64,000 nucleotides of DNA, taken from the NCBI RefSeq assembly GCF_029633865.1, contig NC_079214.1, positions 20,850,450-20,914,449 on the forward strand. The letters are read 5' to 3'. Positions 6,147 through 55,154 of the stretch are shown piece after piece; position 1 is the first letter of the stretch; every line of letters starts with the position of its first letter. The notes beneath the pieces were generated by a model. It was not told the origin of the DNA. It ran no database searches and saw only the letters and a list, made by a program, of their open reading frames with translations. The position numbers and the translations under genes were made by a program. Origin of the DNA: Lampris incognitus (taxonomy: Eukaryota; Chordata; Actinopteri; Lampriformes; Lampridae).

Positions 6147-6983
6147 GTGAAATTAAAGAACAGGGATCGATCAAAGTCTGATCTTCACAACACATGTTTG
6201 TGGAAGTGTATCACGGCAAGAACAAAGGAGATTTCTGAGGACCTCAGAAAAAGCGTTGTTGATGTTCATCAGGCTGGAAAAGGTTACAAAACCATCTCTA
6301 AAGAGTTTGGGCTCCACCAATCCACAGTCAGACAGACTGTGTACAAATGGAGGAAATTCAAGACCATTGTTACCCTCCCCAGGAGTGGCCGACCATCAAA
6401 AATCACTCCAAGAACAAGGCATGTAGTAGTTGGCCAGGTCACAAAGGAACCCAGGGTAACTTCTAAGCAACTAAAGGCCTCTCTCACATTGGCTAGTGTT
6501 AATGTTCATGAGTCCACCATCAGGAGAACACTGAATAACAGTGGTGTGCATGGCAGGGCTGCAAGGAGAAAGCCACTGCTCTCCAAAAAGAACATTGCTG
6601 CCCATCTGCAGTTTGCTAAAGATCACATGGACAAGCCAGAAGACTATTGAAAAAATGTTTCGTGGACAGATGAGACCAAAATAGAACTTTTTGGTTTAAA
6701 TGAGAAGCCTTATGTTTCAAGAAAGGAAAACACTGCCTTCCAGCATAAGAACCTTATCCCATCTGTGAAACATGGTGGTGGTAGTATCATGGTTTGGGCC
6801 TGTTTTGCTGCATCTGGGCCAGAATGGCTTGCCATCATTGATGGAACAATGAATTCTGAGTTATACCCGCAAATTCTTAAGGAAAATGTCAGGACATCTG
6901 TCCGTGAACTGAATCTCAAGAGAACATGGGTCATGCAGCAAGACAACGACCCTAAGCACACAAGTCGTTCTACCAAAGAATAG
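6147..6983 (+). pseudogene. Tc1 transposase remnant
   Basis: Codons from about 6212 encode the paired-type helix-turn-helix of Tc1 transposase (KGYKTISKEFGLHQSTVRQ), then the GRPSKI linker and the second HTH (TIRRTLNNSGVHGR). At 6648-6650 a TGA stands where the family has Trp. The frame resumes with WTDETK (first catalytic Asp), [13 protein letters not shown] and QQDNDPKHTS (second Asp), and ends at TAG 6981-6983. The third catalytic Glu region is lost at the LINE insertion. Inactive. Confidence 0.85.
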
Positions 6984-10528: not shown

Positions 10529-11712
10529 CACACTACATGGCCAAAAGTATGTGGACACCCAAACATCCCACATCCATATGTGCTTGTTGAACATCCCATT
10601 CCAAAACCATGGACATTGATATTGTGCTGGTCCCCCTTTTGCTGCTATAACAACCGTGTGGGACACACCCCTGGGGAGCCTTTCCACTAGACTTTGGAAC
10701 ATGGCTGCAAGGATTCGCTCCCATTAAACCAGAAGAGCATTGGTGAGGTCAGACACTGATATTGGGGAGAAGGCCTGGCTCAGTCAGGCATTCCAATTCA
10801 AAGGTGTTGGATGGGGGTGAGGTCAGGACTCTGTGCAGGCCTGTCAAGTTCTACTATATCAAACGCTGCAAACCATGTCTTTATGGACCTCGCTTTGTGC
10901 ATGGGGCATTGTCATGCTGAAACAGGGGGAGGGCCTTCCAAAAACGGTTGCCACAAAGTTGGAAGCACACAATTATCTTGAATGTCATTTTATGTAGTAG
11001 CGTTAAGATGTCCATTCACTTGAACTATGGGGGCCTAGCCCAAACCATGAAAAATAGCCCCAGACCATTATTCCTCCTCCACCAAACTTCACAGTTGGTA
11101 CTGTGTATTTGGACAGGTAGCGTGCTCCTGTTATCCACCAAACCCAGATTGGTCCATCAGATTGCCAGACCAGCATGATTCATTACTCCACAGAATGCTT
11201 GCCACTGCTCCAGAGTCCAATGGTGATGTCCTTTACATCATTCCAGCTGATACTTGGCATTGCACGTGGTGACTTTAGGCTTGTGTGCAGCTGCTCAGCG
11301 ATAGAAGCTGAATTCCTAAAACTCCTGGCGAACAGTTCTTATGCTGATGTTGCTTCCAGAGGCAGTTTGGAACTCTGTAGTGAGTGTTGCAACCAAGGAC
11401 AAACGATTTTTACATGCTGCACTTCAGCGCTGGGTGGTCCCATCCATGGTCTTGTGTGGCCTACAACTTCACGGCGGAGCTGTTGTTGCTCCTCAACATT
11501 TCCGCTTCACAATATCAGCACTTAGTTGACCGGGGCAGATCTAGCAGGGCAGAAATTTGATGTACTGACTTGGTGGAAAGGTGGCATCCTATGACAATGC
11601 CACCAAGCTCTTCACTACTACCCATTTTACTGCCAGTGTTTGTCTATGGAGACTGCATGGCTGTATGCTTGATTTTATGCAGCTACCAGCAAAGGATGTG
11701 GCTGAAATTAGT
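10529..11712 (-). mobile_element. decayed Tc1-like transposon, right end missing
   Basis: The left terminal repeat begins CACTACATGGCCAAAAGTAT with GTGGACACCC. The interior matches, base for base over long stretches, the element at 28014-29006, and carries a minus-strand transposase now full of stops. Similarity stops near 11712 (GATGTGGCTGAAAT), so the right inverted repeat has been replaced. Confidence 0.75.
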
Positions 11713-11714
11713 CC

Positions 11715-12560
11715 ATGGGCCAGACGATATTTCGGTACATTCAAGGTGGCAAAACTTACTTATAATTTTTGAAAGGATCCATGTCTGTAGATGATATTTT
11801 GGTATGATAACCATTCCTGAGTGGCAGCTGTATCACAGTTATCAGCTCATGAAGTTAACCACCCCCTAAAGTAAATTGCATTTTAGACGCTGGTGCATAT
11901 CCTGGTTTAGCCTCATGGTCAGGACATTTTTCAATGTTCTATAATATTGTCTTTGGTATCATTTTAAAGGGGACCTTCTTAGCTTTCATTCAAGCCCTGT
12001 TGTGGATATTTCTCACAAATATAGAGGTCACTTGAGCTCTTCAACCCGTCAATAACACACATCTTTCTGCAATTTTCGCCTAAACTATATACTTTCTTTT
12101 AGCCCTGTGGCATCTAGGAATATCAGGGACACAAAACACAAAAACTGGAATACTCACAGGACTGTAAAGATTCAGGAAATGTATAATATACCCATACTAT
12201 TTAATTGTGTGAGGTGATTGTGAGCCTTAAATGAGAACTAGACCAAAGCCAGTTAGGTCACAAACTGGTCTCTATACATTTATTTAAATACACAATCAAA
12301 ATACATGATAAAAAGGAATACCATAGTGAGGTAATGAACTATTTTAATATTTTAAACAACATTGACATTTACATATACTTAGTCAATGATACATGTAATC
12401 CCATATCATTAGTGGGTATATGTAATGGTAATGGGTAGGGTAATGGGTATATGTGAATATGGTTACATTATTGTTATCAAGCTCTGGGTAACCAAGTCCA
12501 GAATCAACATCCTGTGCATCAATAGACTACTACCACAGTAATACCATCAGAATCATCACA
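11715..12560. other. no gene seen; 3' flank of the large frame
   Basis: AT-rich. It probably includes the 3' untranslated part of the large minus-strand gene. No terminal inverted repeat bounding that gene was found. Confidence 0.4.
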
Positions 12561-12563
12561 CTG

Positions 12564-12857
12564 TCATTCATCAAACTGCTTGTTTCTCTCATCATCTGAC
12601 TCCCCAAGTTCAAAGTCCAGTTCTGGACCATCCTGCTGTTTTTGGTTACTGCAGGTCTGTAACCTGCACATGTCTGTGCATGGAAGTCCATTTGACAGGC
12701 ACATGCAGCTTGGCATTTTGCATGAATGCACACACTTGCATGTTAGCATTTCCAAGACCACATCTGGTGCAGGTGGGGAGCGCATCCAGTAAATGGCCAG
12801 CTTGCCTTCATCGTCTGTCCATCCATACTCAGTAGGGCTTGGCACCACAGGGTTAGC
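12564..12857 (-). CDS. Cys-rich C-terminal tail after the TAG
   Basis: Directly after the TAG the same frame continues A-N-P-V-V-P-S-P-T-E-Y-G-W for about 98 codons to a stop at 12564. It holds eight Cys in LTCKCVHSCKMPSCMC and GLPCTDMCRLQTC, a C-x-C / C-x3-C pattern like the CXC (tesmin/TSO1) metal-binding fold, followed by an acidic end (GESDDERN). Such tails follow the same nuclease-like region in other members as I remember them, so the TAG looks like a C-to-T change of CAG rather than the natural end. Confidence 0.65.
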   Translation of the reverse strand, partial: ANPVVPSPTEYGWTDDEGKLAIYWMRSPPAPDVVLEMLTCKCVHSCKMPSCMCLSNGLPCTDMCRLQTCSNQKQQDGPELDFELGESDDERNKQFDE

Positions 12858-15800
12858 CTAAAGACAGCACTTCCATATTGCTGCCTGATAGTTGGCTCGT
12901 TGAACATGCATAAAGAGACAGTCTCTACATGGTGGCAGCTGGCTGGACTCAACCTCTCCCCTTTTGGTGCAGAAGAGCTGGTAACGCAGTTTGTTCACCT
13001 CAGCAGTGCTGCTATTAGCAACATACATCCGACAGGTGAACTGCTCAATTTTCTGGAACAGCTCATCACTCACATTCCATGTCTGTCCCAGTTGACTAAA
13101 AGTCTCTTGGCAGGAAGTATGCTTTCTCACTATCTTCAGGGCATTCAGCTTCCCTCGACCAGCGAATGCACTGAAAGTGTCGCAGCCTGTGAAGGCATGT
13201 AAGCCAATTAGGCTGTCACAGATGCTGTCTCCAAGTGAACTTGCCAGTTTGGTGATGTCGACAAACCGTGTGCGGTTCTGAGTCCCACACTTCTGGTAGA
13301 TGGGACAGGTGATGTCCTTCTGGAAGCCAAGACAAAGCACCATGACATCAGTGTCCTCAGCTGTGATGATAACTGACTTTGAGCCCGCATTTGCTGCATG
13401 CAATGCATGCAGGAGCAGACGGGTGTCAGCTTCTTCATGTGTGGAGTGCAGTTCTGCTGCTTCCTCACACCCATCTTCTGTCAACTTGTAGCAGGTTTCC
13501 TCACAGGTCATGTACAACACCTTGCCATGCAGCATAGCTCTGTATTGTGGGAGTATCCACTCTTCCACCAGAAACTTGATGAGACTGGTCTTGTTGGAGG
13601 AACTGCACAGAAATTTTCTCCACTGCTGGACGTGGTGTCCCCCCGCAAGATTCTTGTACTGGAGAGTGATGTCTCCACCCCGGTTCAGTCGTTCAGCATC
13701 TTTGATCGAAGTCTGGTGATAGACATCAAAAACAACATCAATCCTCCCACTCTGTGCTCCCTCATGGAGGACCTGGGTCAAGGCTGACTCTGCCACCTGT
13801 GCAAAGGTTTTGTTGTTGCCATTCATTTTTTGGACCAGGCTCATCCCATCAATGATGGAAGTAGATGGGATTGGGATGTCTTCTGCAGGAGATACATTCT
13901 TTTCAAGCTCTCTGGCAAGTGCAGCCTTGTTTGTTTTTCGTAAGGACCCATCAGCATTTGCCAGTGCCCATGGTAGTGGGCCCAATGGGTAGGCAAGGAC
14001 ATCCTTCAGATTCACCTTCCTGTTTTCAGCCACCAGGATCATGTGACTGAAAAGGTTTCTATCTGCCTTCAGAACCACATCCTGTGCTTTCTTTCCATGA
14101 GCTTGTTTTGTGCTGACATTGGAGAATGTTTTCAGACTTTGCTTGGTCATCTTGTCGTGGAATTTCACAGGTGGTGGGTCTGCATCTAACCTTGTTTGCT
14201 GGAATGCTTGGTAGGCCTCTTCTCCTTTCTCAAGAGCTCTCAAGAGATCTATGGTCACATCAGGTGGAGCCATGTTGCCAGTGGAGAGGCTAACCAAATC
14301 AATCTCACCAGGGGACATAGGATTGAGCCAGTTATTCTCCATAAGGTCCATGAGAGACTGGACATCTGCTTCATCTCTCTTGATCCTTGGACTCTGTAGA
14401 TCTGGATGAGACCATTTGCACCTGCCTTGACCTGTCAGGTCTCTCAGCTGTCTGAGGTACATGCTTCTATACTCAGCTGTGAGATAATATTTGGTCACAG
14501 ATCCTGGCTTCAAGCTGAATCCCTTTGTCCCTCCAGCTGTTTGGGTGTCTTTGTTCACCGTTTCTTCTATAGCTTGGTCAACAGGGATTCGGCCAAAGGG
14601 ATTGGTGGAGCCCAGTTGGACTGAGAAGCCTCCTTCCATGAATTCTGTGTACACATCTGGGTGTGTGATGGGCAGCTCAGACATCTGGGCGTAGTAGTAG
14701 GGGAGGTAGCATGCATAATTCATCCTGTCATAAGCAAAGCACCATGGGATCATTGCTCGAATGCTAGCCAAGTGTAGCATCCAGTCTCCCTCTCTGGATG
14801 CTCGGATGAGCCCCAACAAGATTTCAACCATGTCCAAATAGGACATCCAGAAGTTCGAGAGGCTGCCGTTTCCACCTCTAAGGAACTCACGGTAGACTTC
14901 AAATAGATCCATGATGCGTGTACAAGAGCTGTTCTCGAGGACCTCCTTCAAAGCATGTTGTGAGACTTCTTTCCCAAGGCTGTCAATGGTCTTCAGTGTC
15001 TCATTCAGGTGAACCATGTCATTCCTGTGAGTTTCTTCCAACCGGGACAGGAAACCATTCAAGGTCAGTCGCATGAGAGCCTCATACAGGAGCTTGTGTA
15101 GTCGCACTGCCCTGTTGTACTTGCAGCCATCCATAACACCAGCAATTGAGCCTTCTGCAATCATGCCAGACTCAATGCAGAGGTCTTTGAGTCCAGCATC
15201 TTGGAAACGCTTTCCTATTATTGCCAGCAGTGTGCAGATGGTGTGGAATACCCCAAGCCTAACGATGATATCATGGAACTTGTCATGGTGTTTCCATGTG
15301 ATCTCGACAGCCTTCGCATACAGGGCTTGGTCAAAGACACAGACAATCTTCCTCAGGCCTAAGCACTGCATGATGCTCAGTGACTGGTTAAGCACCTCGT
15401 TGACAGTAGACATTTGTGTCGCTGGAGCATTGATGGTAGGCAGATAGCCTATATTGTCGGGGATGACCGTCATCTCTCCTCGAGTCAGGATGTTGAAGCC
15501 TGTCCAGCTGCTGACTGACTGTTCTTCTTGTTGTGACATGCGTGCTAGGACCCAAAGAAGGTTTTTCTCTCTGGCAAGCTTAGTATTGGCTGCAGTATCG
15601 GCATCTGACTTTTTGCTTTGTGGTGGCCCTACCCGTTGTCCAGCATTGTAAGTTGGTAACATTGGTGGGGGTCCATCAATGCTTCTCTTCTTTGTTTTGG
15701 GAACAGTGGGCATGGGTTGGACAGGAAGTGGGTTGACTGGCTTTGCTTGCACAGCAATCCCATTGACTCTGTGAGATGTTCCCTCACCACTGACAGTTTC

Positions 15801-16340
15801 TTCAAGACGGTCGATATTGTCCCAGGCTAAAGTTGTGAATATGCCAGGATGGATGTTAGCTGGAAGGGCAATGCCACTCCCTGATGATGAGAGTTTCTGG
15901 AGACACAGGGCAGTGTTGATCTCTTCCATCTGTGAATAGGACACACTGTGACCAAGTCGGTTGAGGATGTTTATCAACTCTACATTTCCTGTCAACGATT
16001 TGACACTGAATGGCAGAACAATGTGCTTGGAAGGCTTGGTATTTCCACATGTCACTGCATATACTATGTCATTGCCAAATGACTGCAGAAGGCACTGCAC
16101 TTTCTGGGATGCATGATCAGGATCATTTGAGCCTGTGAGTAGAGAGTACAGGAAGATAATGAGCGACTCTGGAATGGTAGAACATTCTGCTTCTGGTTTG
16201 ACTTCAGGCGGCCAGGTTTGAGGAACATCTTGACTTTTAATGTCTGCTCTCAATTTGATGGCTGCTTTGGCTATAACATCTTGTGCACTGACACTTTTCA
16301 GGGTCTGCAGCTCCCTTTTGAGACTGATTTTCTTTGGCAA
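12858..16340 (-). CDS. central and PIN/FEN-like part of the large protein, 1160 codons
   Basis: Open from 16340 (TTG, not a real start) to TAG at 12860-12858. Residues 8-40 form a coiled segment. Residues 200-250 are a Pro/Lys-rich linker. Residues 260-560 are a conserved block with FWMSYLDMVEILLGLIRA and IPWCFAYDRMNYACYLPYYY. Residues 580-625 include NPFGRIPVDQAIEETVNKDT. The C-terminal part carries spaced acidic motifs: VVFDVY (D872), THEEADTRLLLH (E970, D972), TAEDTDVMVL (D996, D998) and FTGCDTFSAF (D1054). Their order and surroundings match the FEN/XPG-like PIN nuclease pattern (FDG, EAE, DSD, GSD). This assignment is my inference. Codon use is even and stops are absent over 3.4 kb, so disruption is recent or the protein is still under constraint elsewhere. 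Confidence 0.75.
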   Translation of the reverse strand: MPKKISLKRELQTLKSVSAQDVIAKAAIKLRADIKSQDVPQTWPPEVKPEAECSTIPESLIIFLYSLLTGSNDPDHASQKVQCLLQSFGNDIVYAVTCGNTKPSKHIVLPFSVKSLTGNVELINILNRLGHSVSYSQMEEINTALCLQKLSSSGSGIALPANIHPGIFTTLAWDNIDRLEETVSGEGTSHRVNGIAVQAKPVNPLPVQPMPTVPKTKKRSIDGPPPMLPTYNAGQRVGPPQSKKSDADTAANTKLAREKNLLWVLARMSQQEEQSVSSWTGFNILTRGEMTVIPDNIGYLPTINAPATQMSTVNEVLNQSLSIMQCLGLRKIVCVFDQALYAKAVEITWKHHDKFHDIIVRLGVFHTICTLLAIIGKRFQDAGLKDLCIESGMIAEGSIAGVMDGCKYNRAVRLHKLLYEALMRLTLNGFLSRLEETHRNDMVHLNETLKTIDSLGKEVSQHALKEVLENSSCTRIMDLFEVYREFLRGGNGSLSNFWMSYLDMVEILLGLIRASREGDWMLHLASIRAMIPWCFAYDRMNYACYLPYYYAQMSELPITHPDVYTEFMEGGFSVQLGSTNPFGRIPVDQAIEETVNKDTQTAGGTKGFSLKPGSVTKYYLTAEYRSMYLRQLRDLTGQGRCKWSHPDLQSPRIKRDEADVQSLMDLMENNWLNPMSPGEIDLVSLSTGNMAPPDVTIDLLRALEKGEEAYQAFQQTRLDADPPPVKFHDKMTKQSLKTFSNVSTKQAHGKKAQDVVLKADRNLFSHMILVAENRKVNLKDVLAYPLGPLPWALANADGSLRKTNKAALARELEKNVSPAEDIPIPSTSIIDGMSLVQKMNGNNKTFAQVAESALTQVLHEGAQSGRIDVVFDVYHQTSIKDAERLNRGGDITLQYKNLAGGHHVQQWRKFLCSSSNKTSLIKFLVEEWILPQYRAMLHGKVLYMTCEETCYKLTEDGCEEAAELHSTHEEADTRLLLHALHAANAGSKSVIITAEDTDVMVLCLGFQKDITCPIYQKCGTQNRTRFVDITKLASSLGDSICDSLIGLHAFTGCDTFSAFAGRGKLNALKIVRKHTSCQETFSQLGQTWNVSDELFQKIEQFTCRMYVANSSTAEVNKLRYQLFCTKRGEVESSQLPPCRDCLFMHVQRANYQAAIWKCCL

Positions 16341-16830
16341 GTTCCCTCATGGACAAGTTATCGGGATAGAGGAGGAATTTTCCTTTCTCATCAGGGAATA
16401 TCTGCAAGGCTCCAGCAAACTCACTCTCCAGGTTTCGCCTTATGTGCTTCTTGGTTGATTCCTTGACTTGGGCAATGCCTTGGGAGTTCATTGAAGCTAC
16501 CAGTCTAGAAGAGAGATCAGTCATTGTCATCACTTGAGGATTGCCAAAAAGCTCCATCCTGATGAAGAGGAACAGCTCATTGTATGCCTTATTCACAGCA
16601 GCTTCATACTGGGCTGCAGCATCATCATCTTCATTGCTGGCAACCTCTCCTTTGGAAACCTCTTCTTTGGTGTAAAGTCTATAGCATGACCTGTGGTAGT
16701 GCCCTTCAGCTGCTACAAGGTCTCTACTCACAATGGCAAGGATTCTGCTGTCCCTTTTCTTTGTGGCTTTGTGACTCCAAATCCACTCATTAAAAGGGGT
16801 GTCAACATACTTCTGGCTTTGCTTGCACAC
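16237..16830 (-). CDS. N-terminal segment of the large protein
   Basis: A 197-codon frame. It has VCKQSQ at its start, then R-D-S-R-I-L-A followed by LVAAEGHYHRSCYRLYT, a His/Cys cluster that could bind a metal. The remaining part is mostly helical (YEAAVNKAYNELFLFIRMEL) and ends near LLYPDNLSMRELAKEN, where the frame is lost to a one-base shift into the next segment. No clean ATG begins it. About 28 further open codons lie upstream in another frame (about 16845-16930), so an additional frameshift or an upstream exon is likely. Confidence 0.6.
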   Translation of the reverse strand: MCKQSQKYVDTPFNEWIWSHKATKKRDSRILAIVSRDLVAAEGHYHRSCYRLYTKEEVSKGEVASNEDDDAAAQYEAAVNKAYNELFLFIRMELFGNPQVMTMTDLSSRLVASMNSQGIAQVKESTKKHIRRNLESEFAGALQIFPDEKGKFLLYPDNLSMRELAKENQSQKGAADPEKCQCTRCYSQSSHQIESRH

Positions 16831-17183
16831 AGATCTCAGAACTTTCTCAACTCAAGTTTCAGATTTCTATTTACCTGAATGTAGATTTCCACTTGATCAT
16901 TTGACAGATCAATGGCCTCATTGATAGAAAATATTCCAATTTGCCTATTGTACAACATGGAAATGAAACAGCATTGTGCAGTTAATAAAACTGTGAATTA
17001 CGCTCTGTGAGATTCAGCAAAGAAACCCCCTGGTGCCCCAACATATTAGATAATAACATTTTTTTTTGTTTTTTGGAACATATACCATGGCCTGTCGAAA
17101 CACCCGAATAAGTACATCTGATATGGAATGGAGCTTTGACTTTTAATTGTTTTAGTTTACATACAGGTGTGCTTTTTATAATC

Positions 17184-36193: not shown

Positions 36194-39100
36194 CTGCTGT
36201 TACTGCTGCTGAATATTCAAGGAAGAAAAAAAAAACCCCTGCTGATTTAAAATAGCAGCAGGCTCTGCAGCCACGTCTAGCGCACTCATTGCACAGAATA
36301 CCAACAAGCTGCTGCTCCCAGCACTCCTCCTCTCGCTGCCTCTTACACGCAGAAAAAGATACACAAGCAGCACATTTAAAAAATGGGTACAGAGACACAC
36401 TTCCACCTCCATATCGACACGTGCATGCATGCCTTGCCCTCATGAGGCAATTCTCCCCATGTCCTCCCTTCCCACATCCTTCATCATCAAACAAGGCTCA
36501 TCCCGTCTTGTTTTTGAACCATCTCAAAATGATTGGTTTACTCGTGACAGCATCTTATCAACGATGCAAACGTCTCCTCCGTTTGCCTGCCTTTGGGCTG
36601 CTCCTCTGTTTTTTTTTTGTTTTTTTTTTTACCTCAGCTTCCTTGACATCATCATCTCCGGGATTGGTCAGTGTCAGCTGGGACCACCTATTTCACTATC
36701 AGACACACCCTCTTCAGCAGCGTGGGTTGCCACGTGAGTTTTGCAAGCGAAGCGAGGCCCATTTTGCTTTGAATTCAGCATATGCTATATTTGTGACAGT
36801 AATGCAAAGGTGCAGGTTCTCTAAGTGTAGAAAAATACATAATAATAGATTAAATTCATAAAAATGAATTATTCATATTACTTGGAATGAAAGATTTTTC
36901 AGTTTAAGGTTGTAAGTGGTCACTTGGGCATATCACCAGCAAGCCACAGGATTTTTTTCCTGCCTGAATAAAATGATTTTGATAAGACAAGTGCAGCTTC
37001 ATAGCGTGCAGTACTTACAATGATCTGACACTGCAAGTCTAACCGATTGTGAGCAAGTCAAACCGATTGTGAGGCTACAACCAAACTACAGTGAAAAATG
37101 CTGCCGTCCACTGAAAAGACCTCTGAGGCATCTAAGAACAGAAAAATGTGATCAACATGAATAAATAAGCTGAAATTGATGCAGAAGCAGGTAAGGGTAA
37201 CTGGTAACCATGTTAAAGATATCAACAGCAGTAAAAGGTGCTTTTTTTCTTACCATTTCAATGTATTCAACTGTTCATTTGGTTAATAGCCTTAAGTATA
37301 CATCATTTGACCATGTCAAGCAAATGTTCTCTACATAATTTTAACTACACTACTTTCTGACAACCATATGAATATCTTTAACCTATCATCCAGTATGTGC
37401 TGGCCTCTGAGCCTGTTCTACAAATAGGCCTCTCTGATTTGCGAATTCAACTAATAAACTGAACAGTTATGGGATCTATAAAATTACCTGGGAACAGCTA
37501 TCCCTTGAGACAGAAACTGGCTGGGGTTGCAGCAATATTGAGGTTGGTAAAAACTACAGCAGTAAAAGGTAAAGTGGTTGGGTGGGGGAGGGACATTTTT
37601 TGCATCAACTTTGCATCAACTGCAGGGATGACCAGAGCTAGAACAGCATGACATGGCTGAGAGGGTGTCCTCATCACTCAGCACAAAGCATGGCAAACAC
37701 ACACACACACACATAGCTGTAGCCGTTGATCTTGAGTCTAAGTTATGAATGACTCTAGTACTGTTACATAATCAGGCCATGCTCTCAAGGCTCAAGTTTG
37801 CGTCGGTAAGAAAAACTTTGTGAATGAAACATGGAGAGGGAAGCAGATCAGTCTCATTTTGCCTGGTTGTACATACTGAAATGTTCTGAAATGCATGCGA
37901 AAACCATGAGAAATATCTTGTATGCTATGAAAAAACAGAAGCAATGTCTGATAAATTTCTATTTTATTTGTTTATGCAACGAAGAAGTAAAAAAACAACA
38001 ACATATCAGCCTAAAGAATGAAGACTCCCTAATGAGCCAGTGAACTAATTTGCCTTCTTCGCTCACTCTGCACCTACTCTGAACTAGGGCTGGGCAATGT
38101 ATCGATATTATATCATGATATGAGACTACACATCGTCTGGAATTTTGGATATCGTAATATCGTGACATGGCACAAGTGTCTTTTTCCTGGTTTTAAAGGC
38201 TGCATTACAGTAAAGTGATGTAATTTTCTGAACTTAGCAGACCTTTCTAGCTGTTCTGTTATTTGCCTTTACCCACTTAGTTATTATATACAGTGCATCT
38301 GGAAAGTATTCACACCCCTTCACTTTCCCCACATTTTGTTATGTTACAGCCTTATTTCAAAATGGATTAAATTCCTTTTTTCCCTCATCAATCTACATAC
38401 AATACCCCATAATGACAAAGTGAAAAAGGTTTTGTAGAAATTTTTGCTAATTTATTAAAAATAAAAAACTCAAATATTGCATGTACATAAGTATTCACAC
38501 CCTTTGCCATGACACTCAAAATTGAGCTCAGGTTCATCCTGTTTCCACTGATCATCCTTGAGATGTTTCTACATCTTGATTGGAGTCCACCTCTAGTAAA
38601 TGCAATTGATCAGACATGATTTGGAAAGGCACACACCTGTCTATATAAGGTCCCACTGTTGACAGTGCATGTCAGAGCAGAAACCAAGTCATGAAGTCAA
38701 AGGAATTGTCTGTGGACCTCCGAGACAGGATTGTATCGAGGCACAGATCTGGGGAAGGGTACAAAAAAATTTCTACAGCTTTGAAGGTCCCGAAGAGCAC
38801 AGTGGTCTCCATCATTCGTAAATGGAAGAAGTTTGGATCCACCAGGACTCTTCCTAGAGCTGGCCGCCCAGCCAAACTGAGCAATCGGGGGAGAAGGGCC
38901 TTGGTCAGGGAGGTGACCAAGAACCCGATGGTCACTCTGACAGAGCTCCAGCGTTCCTCTGTGGAGATGGGAGAACCTTCCAGAAGGACAACCATCTCTG
39001 CAGCACTCCACCAATCAGGCCTTTATGGTAGAGTGGCCAGACGGAAGCCTCTGCTCAGTAAAAGGCACATGACAGCCCGCTTGGAGTTTGCCAGAAAGCA

Positions 39101-41428
39101 CCTAAAGGACTCTCAGACCATGAGAAACAAGATTCTCTGGTCTGATGAAACCAAGATTGAACTCTCTGGCCTGAATGCCAAACGTCACGTCTGGAGGAAA
39201 CCAGGCACCTCTCATCACCTTGCTAATACCATCCCTACAGTGAAGCATGGTGGTGGCAGCATCATGCTGTGGGGATGTTCTTCAGCGGCAGGAACTGGGA
39301 GACTAGTCAGGATCGAGGGAAAGATGAATGGAGCAAAGTACAGAGAGAGATCCTTGATGAAAACCTGCTCCAGAGCGCTCAGGACCTCAGACTGGGGCGA
39401 AGGTTTACCTTTCAACACGACAACGACACTAAGCACACAGCCGAGACAACGAAGGAGTGGCTTCGGGACAAGTCTGTGAATGTCCTTGAGTGGCCCAGCC
39501 AGAGCCCAGACTTGAACCCCATTGAACATCTCTGGAAAGACCTGAAAATAGCTGTGCAGCGACGCTCCCCATCTAACCTTACAGAGCTTGAGAGGATCTG
39601 CAGAGAAGAATGGGAGAAATACCCCAAATATAGGTGTGCCAAGCTTGTAGCTTCATACCCAAGAAGACTTGAGGCTGCAATCGCTGTCAAGGGTGCCTCA
39701 ACCAAGTACTGAGTAAAGGGTGTGAATGCTTATATACATGCAATATTTCAGTTTTTATTTTTAATAAATTTGCAAAAACTTCTATAAAACCTTTTTCAAT
39801 TTGTCATTATTGGGTATTGTATATAGATTGATGAGAAAAAAAAGGAATTTAATCCATTTTGGAATAAGGCTGTAACATAACAAAATGTGGGGAAAGTGAA
39901 GGGGTGTGAATACTTTCCGGATGCTCTGTAGGCAATACAGATGATTGGCAAAAATCTGATTGTGTAAATGTTTTGTGAAACATCTTTCATACTGTGGCCT
40001 TATGTAAATAAATACACGAGCCAATCAGTTAATATTTCTAGAAAATGTTGCAGCTGTTTGTGATTGACCAATTCTTTCCAACCCCAGTTATGTTTATGCG
40101 TGTTTAGACATTAACTTGACATGCAAACAGTCAATTCCAACGTTCCTCACTGAGCCAATAAGCAGGTTGGGCAGGTGGACAGTATTAAAACTGATTTTGG
40201 TAATCCCTTCCACTTGTAATCCAATCCCAAGATTAAAGAGTTTGTACCGAATGCCACAGGCCAGCATGATCATCACCCATATACTCTCTTTCGAGTCAAA
40301 ATAACATTTCTCAAAAGCAACCTTGTCTTCTGTCATCTCTGAACACAAATACAACAACAGCATAGCATGAGCTGAAGAAACATGAGGAAACTTGTTCCTT
40401 TATCACCAACTGGAGCCAAGAAACAGCCCACTCTTGTGCAAGAAAGACACAGCAGAGCACACTGGGTGCTCTGTGGTGACTGGGTCAAAGTACACAATGC
40501 AACCCAGAGTCTGATATTAACAGTTTTTCAGCATAATGTAACAAACGTGCCTTATCGACCCAAATGTAGTTTTACTTTTCTAGATCTGTAAAATGTAATG
40601 GACTGCAAAATATAAGAAACAGGATTAAAAAAAAAAGGAAAGCACAGACCAAGTAACGTAGATATTGTAATAGGGGTCTCATATTTCTGCCCAATTAGCA
40701 AAGAATGCCATGCATTTCAATAGTTCAACTGAACAATTGGTGGACAGTCCCCATTAGCATAAAGGCTACTTCAACTTTACTGGTGATTAGTCGTGCATCA
40801 GAAGCATAGCAAAAAAAAAAAATATATAATAAAATAAAAACATCTATATTAGAAAGTGAAGGGATTTAGAACGACAAAACATGTATGACAGTGTTTAACT
40901 TGAGGTGAACGCAGTCAAATTCAAGCTAGAGAAGAAGAGTCCTTTCCAACTGTTATGTTAGTATTTAGCACTAGCCGACCTTTTCTTTTTAACTACCCGT
41001 TTTAAGAAAATGGGTTTAACTTGACAATTTATTAAACAATGACCATTTGAATAAATTGTTGTTTTCTACACTGGGCTGAAGTAGAGAACAAACGGTCGAG
41101 TTGAGTCGGATGGAGAGTATTGTGCAACTGACGGGAGCGGAGACAACAGTGCGGGCTATAGTGCGCTAACACATGCGATGTGTTTTGCGTGCTCTGCCTT
41201 TTCTTTTCAGGAACAAGATGAAGTGATAGTAACATATACGATTAGCTCACCTGCCCATCTTCCAAGTCGTGCCGGTGACACCAACCGTCCATTCCCTAGC
41301 ACCCACACCCTCAGTCCGGAGAGCAGCCGGTAAACGGAGCACACAGACACCCAGGCCGCGGTCAGAGCACCGATCCAAAAAAGTGGTGCTTCTACCGCAC
41401 GTAATAGCGCTTCTCCACTCGTCGACAT
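21095..41428 (-). CDS. hsd17b12: hsd17b12, very-long-chain 3-oxoacyl-CoA reductase (complete, 11 exons)
   Basis: The ER enzyme that reduces 3-ketoacyl-CoA to 3-hydroxyacyl-CoA with NADPH in fatty-acid elongation; it is also a 17-beta-hydroxysteroid dehydrogenase. Coding exons: 41428-41251, 32451-32405, 32169-32094, 31787-31680, 30384-30320, 29773-29729, 27838-27804, 27285-27204, 23063-22998, 22704-22555, 21202-21095. These total 960 bases, 319 residues and a TAG stop, with phases that agree at every junction. Visible features: N-terminal hydrophobic segment (about 14-36), cofactor motif TGATDGIG (62-69), NNVG (138-141), catalytic Ser195, Tyr208 and Lys212 (YSASK), and a KxKxx-type ER-retrieval end (KQKQG). 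Human HSD17B12 has 312 residues and the same 11-exon plan. I could not decide between fish paralogues a and b. Intron 8 has a GC donor. Introns are loaded with repeats, most of all the 8.8 kb intron 1. Confidence 0.96.
21532..21900. mobile_element. hAT-type MITE, 369 bp, with 8-bp target duplication
   Basis: Terminal inverted repeats start CAGGGGCGTGCGCAC and end GTGCACGCCCCTG. Direct repeats AGTACATG flank both sides (21524-21531 and 21901-21908), the 8-bp duplication expected of hAT elements. No transposase. It lies in hsd17b12 intron 10. Confidence 0.85.
22245..22385 (-). repeat. tRNA-derived SINE, family C
   Basis: Contains GGCCAAATGGTTACAGCGC and a Pro/Cys-like B-box region CCGGTTCCAGCC, then GCTGCATGTCACCCCCC and a CACTGTCACTATCTAATAAA end. 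The same family as the insertion at 26221-26378, in opposite orientation. Confidence 0.6.
22555..22704 (-). CDS. hsd17b12: hsd17b12 exon 10
   Basis: Between CTTGCAG and GTGAGT. Encodes [20 protein letters not shown], then [12 protein letters not shown] and [10 protein letters not shown]. 150 bases. Confidence 0.95.
22998..23063 (-). CDS. hsd17b12: hsd17b12 exon 9
   Basis: Between ATCATAG and GTAAGA. Encodes [20 protein letters not shown] and IQ. 66 bases, phase 0. Confidence 0.95.
23579..23818 (-). repeat. tandemly duplicated SINE-A head plus flank
   Basis: Two direct copies of about 119 bp, starting at 23579 and 23698. Each carries a reversed SINE-A head (GGGATTCGAACTGGCGATC then TACACTACCCGGAC) followed by the same unique flank (GTACTGTTGACGAATGAGAC). 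The duplication happened after the SINE inserted. Confidence 0.8.
24555..24906 (+). mobile_element. RTE-clade LINE 3' fragment
   Basis: A 5'-truncated copy of the element at 53200-54335: GGACAGGATTAGGAATGATT near its start, then a [11 protein letters not shown]-type C-terminal coding remnant with frameshifts, GTGGCGACCCCTAACGAGAG, and a (TAG)n tail at 24880-24906. It lies in hsd17b12 intron 8. Confidence 0.85.
26095..26527 (-). repeat. fish retroposon, family D, split by SINE C
   Basis: It contains GGAGCAGTGGGCAGCTGCAG, ACCCACGCAGACACAGGG, AACATGCAAACTCC and GGGTTCGAACCCAGGACC, a tRNA-like B box in reverse. The unbroken relative at 52612-52912 is nearly identical. The interrupting insert is 26221-26378. 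Confidence 0.8.
26221..26378 (-). repeat. SINE family C insertion with 15-bp target duplication
   Basis: Flanked by perfect direct repeats CATGCATGTCTTTTT at 26206-26220 and 26379-26393. The interior (CAGTGACAGTAGAGAGAGAC, ATGACATGCAGCAAAGGGCC, GTGTGAACCCAGGC) matches 22245-22385. Target-primed retroposition is clear. Confidence 0.9.
27204..27285 (-). CDS. hsd17b12: hsd17b12 exon 8 (catalytic Ser/Tyr/Lys)
   Basis: Acceptor TTTTCAG. Encodes [20 protein letters not shown] then TVYSASK, with catalytic Ser, Tyr and Lys. The donor is AAG/GCAAGT, a GC instead of GT, and otherwise matches the consensus. Any GT-using alternative would break the join to exon 9. Confidence 0.93.
27804..27838 (-). CDS. 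hsd17b12: hsd17b12 exon 7
   Basis: Between CCTCTTAG and GTAGGT. Encodes [11 protein letters not shown] plus two bases. 35 bases. Confidence 0.94.
28014..29006 (-). mobile_element. Tc1-like transposon, inactive, both ends present
   Basis: Left terminus CACTACATGGCCAAAA and right terminus (reverse complement) CACTTTATGGCCAAAA. The transposase is on the minus strand. The same family as 10529-11712. It lies in hsd17b12 intron 6. Confidence 0.85.
28098..28535 (-). pseudogene. Tc1 transposase C-terminal remnant, catalytic residues lost
   Basis: The longest open piece reads [15 protein letters not shown], then [11 protein letters not shown], where Lys replaces the second catalytic Asp, then [14 protein letters not shown], where the residues between SPD and HLW (including the catalytic Glu) are deleted. 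The N-terminal HTH domains upstream are unreadable. Inactive. Confidence 0.85.
29221..29510 (+). repeat. fish retroposon, family E, full copy
   Basis: Starts near CATTATAATTCTGTTATCC. The centre has CCTGTTAAAGG and a T-run. It ends GGGCTATACAACTAAAATTG then ACTTGACT. Direct comparison with 34033-34325 shows collinearity along the whole length. Confidence 0.85.
29729..29773 (-). CDS. hsd17b12: hsd17b12 exon 6
   Basis: Between CTTTCAG and GTGAGT. Encodes [15 protein letters not shown], with the conserved Asn of the SDR N-S-Y-K tetrad region. 45 bases. Confidence 0.95.
29880..29928. repeat. (GT)n-(GC)n microsatellite
   Basis: GT run followed by a short alternating CG run, in hsd17b12 intron 5. 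Alternating purine-pyrimidine DNA able to adopt Z-form. Confidence 0.95.
30320..30384 (-). CDS. hsd17b12: hsd17b12 exon 5
   Basis: Between CAACAG and GTGAGT. Encodes the NNVG motif and [16 protein letters not shown]. 65 bases. Confidence 0.95.
31096..31320. mobile_element. fold-back element with about 53-bp inverted arms
   Basis: The left arm (31096-31148) includes GATCGAACTGTTTCCCC and GAGATCTGTTTCCCCC. The right arm (31264-31320) is its near-perfect reverse complement. The spacer has GTTAGGTTAAG repeats and a direct partial copy of the arm start at 31248-31263. No coding. In hsd17b12 intron 4. Confidence 0.75.
31680..31787 (-). CDS. hsd17b12: hsd17b12 exon 4
   Basis: Between TTTTCAG and GTAAGA. 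Encodes [20 protein letters not shown] and on to LEIGVL. 108 bases, phase 1 to phase 1. Confidence 0.95.
32094..32169 (-). CDS. hsd17b12: hsd17b12 exon 3
   Basis: Between TTTGCAG and GTGAGT. Encodes [20 protein letters not shown] and on to SKSI plus one base. The Arg after ILIS-type strand beta2 fits NADPH preference. Confidence 0.95.
32405..32451 (-). CDS. hsd17b12: hsd17b12 exon 2
   Basis: Between ATCTAG and GTGAGA. Encodes [16 protein letters not shown], the Rossmann cofactor-binding turn. 47 bases. Confidence 0.95.
32799..32868. repeat. 70-bp near-perfect palindrome
   Basis: Arms of about 31 bases (starting ATTATACTGCTAGGAACC and ending GGTTCCTAGCAGTATAAT) differ at about one base. They are built from GGTTCCTAGGAA units. 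Weaker symmetry extends outward on both sides. In hsd17b12 intron 1, 350 bp upstream of exon 2. Confidence 0.9.
33530..33962 (+). repeat. tRNA-derived SINE, family A, reference copy
   Basis: The head GTCCGGGTAGCGTGGCGGTC (A box) and CACTGGTTCGAATCCC (B box) is tRNA-like. It is followed by GACACAATTGGCCGTGTCTG, a body with poly-G runs at 33731-33742 and 33882-33892, and an A-run at 33949-33958. About 430 bp, in intron 1. Confidence 0.85.
34033..34325 (+). repeat. fish retroposon, family E, full copy
   Basis: Collinear with 29221-29510 and, inverted, with 17184-17480. Ends GGGCTATACAAATAAAATTG. Confidence 0.85.
34330..35280. other. no gene seen (hsd17b12 intron 1)
   Basis: Several short frames on both strands without recognisable content. 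G- and GA-rich at 34540-34670. Confidence 0.45.
35283..35620 (+). repeat. family D retroposon with LINE-type tail
   Basis: Starts with a B-box-like GGGTTTGAGCCCCGGGG, then GAGTTTGCATGTTCTCCC, GTGTCTGCGTGGGTTTCC, GTCCAAAGACATGTAGG, and the tail GGCGGCCTGTCCAGGGTGTC to ATGGATGAATG. The forward version of 26095-26527 and 52612-52912. Confidence 0.8.
35739..35880. repeat. partial SINE-B fused to LINE tail
   Basis: 35739-35800 matches SINE family B up to GGGCGACTAC. 35803-35880 is the GGCTCCAGCATCCCCGC to ATGGATGGATGG tail. The direct fusion suggests template switching or a later deletion. Confidence 0.6.
36119..36190. repeat. (CA)n microsatellite
   Basis: About 36 uninterrupted CA units. The CV and HT poly-dipeptide frames across it are artefacts. 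Confidence 0.97.
36880..38085. other. no gene seen (hsd17b12 intron 1)
   Basis: AT-rich intronic sequence with a short CA run at 37697-37712. Nothing else supported. Confidence 0.5.
38291..39928 (+). mobile_element. nearly intact Tc1-like transposon (IR/DR type), 1638 bp
   Basis: Flanked by TA at 38289-38290 and 39929-39930. The termini CAGTGCATCTGGAAAG and (reverse complement) CAGAGCATCCGGAAAG belong to inverted repeats of about 220 bp. Each repeat carries an outer and an inner binding repeat: AAGTATTCACACCCC at about 38304 and AAGTATTCACACCC at about 38489, mirrored at 39712 and 39899. The transposase between them has a single frameshift. Confidence 0.93.
38691..39712 (+). pseudogene. Tc1 transposase, one 2-base frameshift from intact
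   Basis: Frame 1 (38691-39352 useful part) starts [20 protein letters not shown], with two HTH motifs ([30 protein letters not shown]), the GRPAKL linker, WSDETKIE (first Asp) and [12 protein letters not shown]. Around 39343-39352 an AG-repeat run moves reading into the frame that continues [26 protein letters not shown] (second Asp), [11 protein letters not shown] (Glu, DD34E spacing) and ends STKY TGA at 39712. All three catalytic acids survive. The run looks two bases too long, a slippage change. About 340 residues in total, the usual Tc1 size. Confidence 0.9.
40000..41200. other. no gene seen (hsd17b12 intron 1, 5' part)
   Basis: AT-rich intron with no recognisable repeat or RNA. Short frames at 40094-40591 have no recognisable content. 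Confidence 0.5.
41251..41428 (-). CDS. hsd17b12: hsd17b12 exon 1 (coding)
   Basis: The ATG at 41428 begins [18 protein letters not shown], with a hydrophobic anchor and then [10 protein letters not shown]. The exon ends at RLGRWA plus one base before donor GTGAGC. 59 codons plus 1. Confidence 0.93.
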
Positions 41429-53199: not shown

Positions 53200-54335
53200 T
53201 CTACTATCACTACTACTACTACTACTACTGCCACTACTACTACTACTACTACTACTACTTTCGGCTGCTCCCGTTAGGGGTCGCCACAGCGGATCATCTG
53301 TTTCCATTTCTTCCTGTCCAGTGCGTCTTCCTCTGTCACACCAGCCACCTGCATGTCTTCCCTCAGCACATCCATAAACTTCCTCTTTGGCCTTCCTCTT
53401 TTCCTCTTCCCTGGCAGCTCCATATTCAGCATCCTTCTGCCAACATCTCTCCTCCACACATGTCCAAGCCATCTCAATCTTGCCTCTCTTGCTTTGTCTC
53501 CAAATGGTCCAACCTGAGCGGTCCCTCTAATATAATTGTTCCTAATCCTGTCCTTCTTCATCACTCCCAGTGAAACTCTTAGCATCTTCAACTCTGCAAC
53601 CTCCAGCTCCACCTCCTGTCTTTTCGTCAGTGCCACTGTCTCCAAACCATATAACATAGCTGGTCTCACAACCATCTTGTAAACCTTCCCTTTAACTCTT
53701 GCTGGTACCCTTCTGTCGCAAATCTCTCTTGACACTCTTCTCCACCCACTCCACCCTGCCTGCACTCTCCTCTTCACCTCTCTACTGCACTCCCCATTAC
53801 TTTGGACAGTTGATCCCAAGTATTTAAACTCATATGCTTTCGTCACCTCCACTCCTTGCATCCTGACCATTCCACTGTCCTCCCTCTCATTCACGCATAG
53901 GTATTCCATCTTGCTCCTTCTGACTTTCATTCCTCTTCTCTCCAGTGCATACCTCCACCTGTCCAGGCTCTCCTCAACCTGCACCTTACTTTCACTACAG
54001 ATCACAATGTCATCCGCGAACATCATCGTCCATGGAGACTCCTGCCTGATCTTGTCCGTCAACCTGTCCATCACCATTGCAAACAAGAAAGGGCTCAGAG
54101 CTGATCCTTGATGTAATCCCACCTCCACCTTGAACCCATCTGTCATTCCAACCACACACCTTACCATTGTCACACTTCCCTCATACATATCCTGCACCAC
54201 TGCTACATACTTCTCTGCAACTCCCGACTTCCTCATACAATACCACACCTCCTCTCTCGGCACCCTATCGTATGCTTTCTCTAAATGTACAAAGACACAA
54301 TGTAACTCCTTCTGGCCTTCTCTATACTTCTCAAT
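53200..54335 (-). mobile_element. RTE-clade LINE inserted in the Gypsy LTR, 5'-truncated
   Basis: Flanked by the 7-bp duplication CAGAACG (53193-53199 and 54336-54342). The uninterrupted sequence can be seen in the other LTR at about 56066. The 3' end is a (AGT)n tail (53200-53262), preceded by GTGGCGACCCCTAACGGGAG in sense. 5'-truncated within the reverse transcriptase. Confidence 0.92.
53274..54263 (-). pseudogene. RTE reverse transcriptase, C-terminal half
   Basis: A 329-codon frame lacking its N-terminus. GLHQGSALSPFLFAMVMD and MMFADDIVICSE (the F-A-D-D catalytic box) mark the palm. Then come thumb and C-terminal segments ([46 protein letters not shown]), ending at the stop within 53274-53276. 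The frame is uninterrupted, so the copy is young, but without endonuclease and the first RT motifs it cannot move itself. The open frame extends upstream to the truncation point. Confidence 0.9.
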
Positions 54336-54545: not shown

Positions 54546-55154
54546 CTAAGGGGTCTTGTTGGGGGGGGGCAGGGTAGGAGGGTGCCCCCACCGTGGGGGC
54601 TGGGCAAGTCCAGCAGGTTGGTCCAAGTCCAGGTGAGCTGGTTTGAGGCAATCAACCGAAATGCGCTCATGCTTGTCGCCGACTTCCATGACAAACTGCT
54701 TGTTCCTGGTCTCCAGGATGCAGAACGGCCTGTCGTAGGGAGGCTGCAGCAGTCCACAGTGGGCGTCGTGGTGGATGAGTATGTATTCTGCTGACTGCAG
54801 ACTTGTGGAGATGTGAGACTGTGAGGGGCCATGTTGCGAAGTGGGGACTGGTGCGAAAGCTCTGGCGTTATCCAGGAGCGTGGTCCGTTGATGGGCTGCA
54901 GACCAGGGAGCTATGGTGTTGGGAACGAAATCCCCTGGGAACCGCAGCAGCTGTTTGTAAACCAGTTCAGCGGACGAGGACTGGAGGTCCTCCTTAGGGG
55001 CAGTCCTGAGGCCTAGCATGACCCACAGGAGCCTGTGGACCCAGCTACTATCCTTCAGGCTGGCCCGAAGAGCGGCCTTCATAGAGCGATGAAACCACTC
55101 GCACAACCCATTGGCCTGTGGTAGGTACGCGGTGGTGTGGTGGAGCTTCACCAC
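54546..55154 (-). pseudogene. Gypsy integrase C-terminal part
   Basis: Begins at HHTTAYLPQANGLCEWFHRS, containing the third catalytic acid (Glu after ANGL). Continues WVHRLLWVMLGLRTAPKED and SAELVYKQLLRFPGDFVP, then a chromodomain-less tail around RISVDCLKPAHLDLD. Upstream (55255-55160) a scrap reads TWVALFGTPSDLSS of the same integrase core, out of frame. Non-functional without the rest of pol. Confidence 0.85.

Follow-up and report, generated by a model that had tools for sequence, protein, structure and literature searches.

The window analysed here, a 64,000-nucleotide stretch of the Lampris incognitus genome, contains a damaged transposon copy on the minus strand at 11709..16768; all features of this copy are given on that strand. 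A blastn comparison with another copy of the element, L003, showed 99.35% identity over 5066 columns and ended at 16768, with the left end of the window copy missing (5'-truncated). The right terminus, which reads TAGTCCATGGGCCAGA on the plus strand, occupies 11709..11724 and matches that of other copies, with single changes in a few. Next to it, at 11728..12237, lies the right inverted-repeat arm of about 510 bp, of which the left arm of L003 is the inverted counterpart, at 98.4% identity. An uninterrupted frame of 1160 aa at 12858..16340 corresponds to residues ~303-1462 of the 1560-codon frame of the intact element. Within this frame are a FEN/XPG-like PIN core at 13107..13859 (D831, D872, E969/E970/D972, D996/D998 and D1054, then GxGKxxA) and, at 14565..15821, a probable DDE core with DN[IF]D (D174/D177), VFDxxxxxKA (D337) and D..xE[QE]T (E592).

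The original prediction had taken 12858..16340 for a complete protein, which it is not. An in-frame stop at 12858-12860 severs from the frame a CXC-like Cys-rich tail (12567..12857; family HMM positions 1467-1563, with conserved Cys) that continues in the same frame. Near 16340, a frameshift moves the N-terminal part of the copy (16240..16768; family HMM positions 159-314), including the end of a second CxxC...YHxxC module (HYHRSCY), into another frame. Most of the His/Cys N-terminus is absent because the copy ends at 16768, and the frameshift places it outside the 1160-aa frame. The predicted His/Cys start and CXC tail therefore do exist in the family, but both lie beyond the frame to which they had been attributed. 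The window copy is dead, being truncated and doubly broken.

The genome holds many copies of the same element. A 31-mer from the right end had 598+574 = 1172 exact matches in the 1.48-Gb genome (control, 0), and a coding 32-mer with one two-fold position had 1181 (controls, 0). The protein had been called an orphan; this description was wrong, as the genome holds over a thousand exact element matches as well as many divergent relatives. The 40 copies scored were 98-100% identical, and in 24 of these best-scoring 40 no stop interrupted the frame for 1559 codons or more (~1560). An intact element of 6.79 kb was common to all six copies that were extended, which were 99.3-99.5% identical (~99.4% among the copies compared) and had different flanks at both ends. 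Each of the six possessed inverted repeats of 510-544 bp, with arms 95.4-98.6% alike within a copy. The termini read TAGTCC...GGACTA, with the terminal TAGTCCATGGGCCAGA at both ends. Exact 3-bp target duplications flanked 15 of the 18 copies with both ends and were missing in the other three; mispaired flanks of the same 18 copies predicted 0.4/18 by chance. Copy number and flanks, both of which the original prediction had proposed to examine, thus bear out its suggestion of an element-borne protein. The transposon family is very abundant and was recently active and amplified in this genome.

The intact element encodes a single intronless frame of ~1560 codons. The protein would run from two CxxC...YHxxC modules through a DDE-like core interrupted by a large insertion to the FEN/XPG-like PIN domain, which has a GxGxxxA (helix-hairpin-helix-like) motif downstream, and on to the CXC tail. 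The motifs DN[IF]D, FDxxxxxKA and D..xE[QE]T occur in the expected DDE order and are conserved across relatives, with ~255 residues between the second D and the E. These motifs point to a probable DDE transposase core in mid-protein, assigned by their order alone. Given this core, the nuclease would most likely be one of two catalytic domains. The core had not been part of the original prediction, nor had the IIDG motif upstream of the nuclease residues. The tail Cys are conserved in 15/16 to 17/17 rows of an HMM alignment of relatives. Against the Tesmin/TSO1-like Pfam model TCR (PF03638), the tail scored 14.9 bits (E=0.034), below the cut-off of 23.5, and the 1560-aa frame gave E=0.84. No helicase was among the Pfam matches to the 1560-aa frame at E<=10.

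Terminal inverted repeats are a feature of Academ transposons, and the nuclease of the AcademX lineage is of the XPG type. AcademX elements are described as having a nuclease and target duplications of 3 or 4 bp, while AcademH has a helicase in place of the nuclease (Kojima 2020, cited in PMC10045372). Compared by description only, the 3-bp duplications of the present element fit AcademX, terminal inverted repeats are present as in Academ, and the FEN/XPG-like domain suggested by profile comparison would correspond to the AcademX nuclease. Academ is listed with a DDD/E transposase (PMC9587614), to be set beside the DDE core that motif order makes probable here. The length of 6.8 kb is inside the range published for Academ, which averages 5565 bp in bivalves (PMC10294476). 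Very probably, the frame is a decayed transposase copy from a cut-and-paste-type transposon that amplified recently and whose most likely lineage is AcademX. It is unlikely, though worth weighing, that the element belongs to another or unnamed superfamily of DNA transposons and gained a FEN-like nuclease independently of AcademX. Such an origin would be in keeping with the CXC tail and double CxxC...YHxxC start, which are not among the Academ features in the published descriptions cited here, and with the 3-bp duplications also made by Zator (PMC10045372). However, AcademX has been described in print by just this combination, a nuclease and duplications of 3-4 bp, and Academ elements are likewise long.

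The identity of the nuclease domain was assessed from its motifs, their conservation and profile comparison. VFDVY (D872), EEAD (D972), EDTD (D996/D998) and GCD (D1054) were present in the predicted order, preceded by a further FEN-type motif, IIDG (D831). A 27-row alignment that included fragments showed no conserved column, and residue counts were therefore taken from the HMM alignment, in which relatives were mostly 25-67% identical and several rows came from one family. As the original prediction required of a nuclease family, the named Asp residues were mostly kept across divergent relatives: D872 in 16/16 rows, D972 in 11/12 (Glu in the remaining one), D996 in 15/17 and D998 in 15/16. 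D1054 was found in 19/19 rows, a count that is biased because the relatives were retrieved with the D1054 motif. The first Asp of IIDG was Asp in only 13/16 rows. Among near-identical copies, the catalytic positions of the PIN domain were retained in 20 of 20.

Alignment of the domain profile to a FEN1/EXO1 profile gave hhalign scores of 32.4-33.4, with the acidic motifs in order. None of 200 column-shuffled FEN profiles reached 33.4 (top shuffle, 23.2); a reversed FEN profile scored 16.1, and three other regions of the protein scored 14.9-17.4 against FEN. When the halves of the domain were aligned separately, each fell on the corresponding part of FEN1. The C half was not equalled by any of 150 shuffles and the N half was equalled by one of 150, while for the N half of the L055-type family no shuffle of 150 scored as high. 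The order IIDG, VFD, EEAD, DTD, GCD and GxGxxxA is the same as in FEN1, EXO1 and XPG, and the EAD and GCD of the transposon are the EXO1 versions. The domain differs from these enzymes in the stretch that lies between the second Asp and EEAD and contains an invariant Lys (K1219 of L003, 16/16 rows), in its setting within a 1560-residue transposon protein, and in not being recognised by XPG_N or XPG_I. XPG_N (PF00752) matched at the expected place in two of seven sequences, both of one family (E=0.051 and 0.18), with a best score of 14.5 bits against a cut-off of 22. Genome-wide, XPG_I (PF00867) matched just 7 times; this model therefore misses the thousand-odd copies of the family.

These results support, at the level of sequence, a C-terminal PIN nuclease of FEN/XPG type, as originally predicted. 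Chance resemblance to the acidic motifs of some other Rossmann-like or RNase H-like domain appears improbable. In its favor, no Pfam model exceeded its cut-off on the domain, PDB searches with a single sequence and with a profile found no nuclease of PIN/FEN fold, and the database-style hhalign probability was only 18-22%, with a FEN/EXO1 profile of just 6 sequences. Against it, the score topped every shuffle, each half alone aligned with its FEN1 counterpart, the alignment extended to the GxGxxxA that follows GCD, and EXO1 itself has EAD, EDSD and GCD. Other weak matches were set aside: SLX1 in the PDB (E=0.08) falls outside the acidic core, SRP in the PDB profile search (E=1.2-1.3) spans only a short stretch around the second Asp, and Polysacc_deac_1, AAA-ATPase_like and other Pfam matches (E 0.02-0.3) were scattered.

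Between families, synonymous sites were near saturation (pS 0.62-0.89, compared with pN 0.22-0.51). Selection within two divergent families looks weak, as among decaying copies (dN/dS ~0.65-0.69), and changes private to single copies in nine intact frames look neutral (42/28/40 by codon position). The long intact frame and the purifying selection between families would suit a host gene or domesticated nuclease, but for the main family this reading is highly improbable and was ruled out by more than a thousand exact hits to the terminus and to the coding 32-mer, by the inverted repeats and by the target duplications, in addition to the neutral-looking private changes and the truncated, twice-broken window copy. 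A viral or prokaryotic origin was unsupported: pattern searches returned one stretch in each of two IMG/VR searches and five in GTDB contigs, none of them a relative, and tblastn against phages and plasmids found no match to the transposon protein.

For the AcademX-like transposon, a division of labor can be proposed in which the Zn modules, the CXC tail or both would bind the inverted repeats and the DDE core would cut and join the 3' ends. The FEN-like domain may then trim the non-transferred 5' strand, or else flaps or hairpins that excision leaves behind; alternatively, it could process gaps at the new insertion site. A tentative proposal goes further: the element would still be live, or have been so until very recently, and its transposase would use two nucleases, a DDE core for end joining being fused to a FEN/EXO1-type nuclease that would itself be needed to process the ends of the transposon, whether as 5' strand, flap or hairpin. 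KolobokP and other Kolobok lineages with accessory nucleases are DNA transposons in which a second nuclease accompanies a DDD/E transposase (PMC9587614). As described there, the Kolobok nucleases differ in being His-Me finger, lambda-exonuclease-like or DnaQ enzymes, and KolobokP has terminal direct repeats, whereas the present element has inverted repeats and one fused protein.

The transposon reading explains a large protein that was uncharacterised and unrecognised by Pfam. The family is also relevant to the question of why some transposons carry a second, repair-type nuclease. It supplies many stop-free, near-identical copies together with divergent relatives that retain the nuclease residues, and the role of the FEN-like domain in transposition is therefore directly testable. 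If the two-nuclease proposal is true, a vertebrate cut-and-paste transposase would have a flap-endonuclease domain as an integral part of its catalytic machinery, and intact copies are at hand for testing it.

The 1160-aa frame at 12858-16340 was present on the minus strand, which the original prediction had missed, and matched zero Pfam families at E<=1. A profile of the ~1560-codon transposon protein (the family HMM) aligned with three collinear pieces, all on the minus strand: 16240-16851 (HMM positions 159-314), 12861-16346 (312-1465) and 12567-12857 (1467-1563). A frameshift near 16340 forms the first junction, and an in-frame stop at 12858-12860 forms the second. Similarity to other copies ends at 16768, so the window copy lacks the element's left part. 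Frameshift, stop and absent left part together mean that the window copy is dead, a state overlooked at first; stop-free copies are present elsewhere in the genome. Zinc and CXC parts had been placed inside the frame. The CXC tail lies beyond the stop, at 12567-12857, and the short frame immediately downstream of the 1160-aa frame gave a weak match, below cut-off, to TCR, the CXC model of Pfam (E=0.034). Also seen in the window were Tc1/mariner (Sleeping Beauty-type) transposase remains at 6147-6650 (+) and 38691-39479 (+) (Pfam HTH_SB, HTH_Tnp_Tc3_2), an RVT_1 reverse transcriptase frame at 53274-54263 (-) and, in the next frame at 54546-55154 (-), a weak, below cut-off integrase trace.

A first pass through the window's own genome (1.48 Gb) gave 3853 candidate copies, and every one of the best 40 scored was 98-100% identical. 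Frames of at least 1559 codons without internal stop were found in 24 of these 40, a share of the best-scoring copies that does not represent all copies; nine of the 24 lay within 20 re-read loci and measured 1560 codons each on re-reading. Six copies extended 3 kb upstream had 6.79 kb in common (identity 99.3-99.5%), and in all six the left and right ends formed an inverted repeat of 510-544 bp with arms 95.4-98.6% alike. The terminus was TAGTCCATGGGCCAGA; a few copies departed from it by single changes. Both ends could be read in 18 of 22 tabulated copies. An exact 3-bp target duplication flanked 15 of these 18; the copies L003, L006 and C15 lacked one. Flanks mispaired across different copies agreed in 2.3% of pairs (0.4/18 expected). 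Copies L011, L013, L014 and L020 lacked one end and so fell outside the 18. The truncated window copy was likewise unused, and copy L015 was excluded beforehand because of an inverted duplicate of its own right-end region on its left side (1-475, frame sense), perhaps an aberrant or nested insertion.

Exact occurrences in the genome numbered 1172 for the right-terminal 31-mer and 1181 for a coding 32-mer from inside the element (one two-fold position); each control gave 0. On the sequence evidence, the original prediction of a mobile, element-borne protein was upheld; its high copy number had gone unnoticed. The near-equality of the two counts suggests that short copies with internal deletions are not dominant. 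Private changes in the nine intact frames (72 non-synonymous, 38 synonymous) were nearly even across codon positions 1/2/3 (42/28/40), the distribution that neutral change following insertion would give.

Conservation of the putative nuclease domain was assessed in L003 numbering (window-frame residue + 302), in rows that are not independent, several being from one family. G1134, D1174 and K1219 were kept in 16/16 rows, D1133 was Asp in 13/16, and E1271 (11/12), E1272 (11/11), D1274 (11/12), D1298 (15/17), D1300 (15/16) and K1366 (17/18) were also retained; D1356 was kept in 19/19, a count biased by the search pattern. The motif Asp residues originally named (D1174, D1274, D1298, D1300, D1356) are among those kept across relatives. 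All nine tested positions were kept in 20/20 main-family copies, bar position 1274 of the EEAD motif, where L003, otherwise stop-free, has Glu for Asp. Archaeal FEN1 has Glu at this position and EXO1 has Asp.

Against a FEN1/EXO1 profile built from six sequences, the nuclease-region profile scored 32.4 (P=0.0013; hhalign), or 33.4 without inserts. None of 200 column shuffles of the FEN profile reached 33.4 (best 23.2), and the reversed FEN profile scored 16.1. Three other regions of the protein scored 14.9-17.4 against FEN and 10.8-19.7 against reversed FEN. The default alignment covered 88 columns in the C half, and relaxed posterior limits extended it to 217, pairing IIDG with AIDG, VFD with VFDG, EDTD with QDYD, TGCD with MGTD and GRGKLNALKIVRKH with GIGFKRAYEIVRSG, the last being the helix-hairpin-helix region of FEN1; EEAE fell near SEGEA. 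EXO1 itself carries EAD, EDSD and GCD. Run separately, each half fell on the corresponding half of FEN1, the score being equalled by 0/150 shuffles for the C half, 1/150 for the N half and 0/150 for the N half of the divergent L055-type family. XPG_N matched in the right place in 2/7 tested sequences, both of one family (E=0.051 and 0.18, below cut-off), and in 1/27 rows of an alignment including fragments (E=0.088). On the other side, the hhalign probability was only 18-22%, PDB searches by sequence and by profile found no nuclease of FEN/XPG fold, and XPG_I gave only 7 places in the whole genome. As far as sequence comparison reaches, the proposed nuclease-like core was borne out.

The 1560-codon frame of L003, with ATG as its third codon, runs from two CxxC...YHxxC modules through a middle region to the PIN-like domain and, last, the CXC tail. 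The modules stand in tandem at residues ~20-190 and look like an internal duplication. In the middle region D476 and D479 of DN[IF]D were invariant in the five family groups with data, D639 of FDxxxxxKA in six and D890 of D..xE[QE]T in eight; E894 was Glu in 11/13 rows. This D-D-E order, in which ~255 residues precede the E, suggests on motif grounds that the region is an RNase H-like transposase containing an insertion; the original prediction did not include this probable DDE core.

Relatives were sought with a degenerate DNA pattern for HA.TGCD, using a codon absent from most main-family copies. It hit 191 genomic places (control, 2), and 12 of 13 fetched stretches matched the window frame by tblastn at E<=0.01, L048 being without such a match. 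Identities were mostly 25-67%; L049 had one long stretch at 19%, and L039 matched over only 28 residues. Further searches of the genome added relatives. Almost all were broken, and their open pieces were aligned to the HMM without repair. No relatives turned up in the viral, phage, plasmid and prokaryote collections searched. Five L055-type copies lay inside ~1.4 Mb of C6 (61.2-62.6 Mb), which may reflect local or segmental duplication. Between families pS was 0.62-0.89, near saturation, and pN 0.22-0.51, a contrast similar in the PIN and DDE regions where data suffice; it argues for selection on the protein over the long term. Inside two of the divergent families dN/dS was only 0.65-0.69, a value in keeping with decay of the copies.

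The nuclease of AcademX, a lineage of Academ DNA transposons, is XPG-like. Among the titles listed on Academ/AcademX, or on an XPG/FEN1/PIN-like nuclease and transposon, none announced a protein like the present one, and the texts may hold more. In the published descriptions, Academ elements are long (PMC10294476) and counted among DDD/E superfamilies (PMC9587614); duplications are 3 or 4 bp in AcademX and 9 or 10 bp in AcademH, a difference linked to the encoded nuclease and helicase, respectively (PMC10045372). The element is most likely a new member of the nuclease-encoding group within Academ, amplified very recently.
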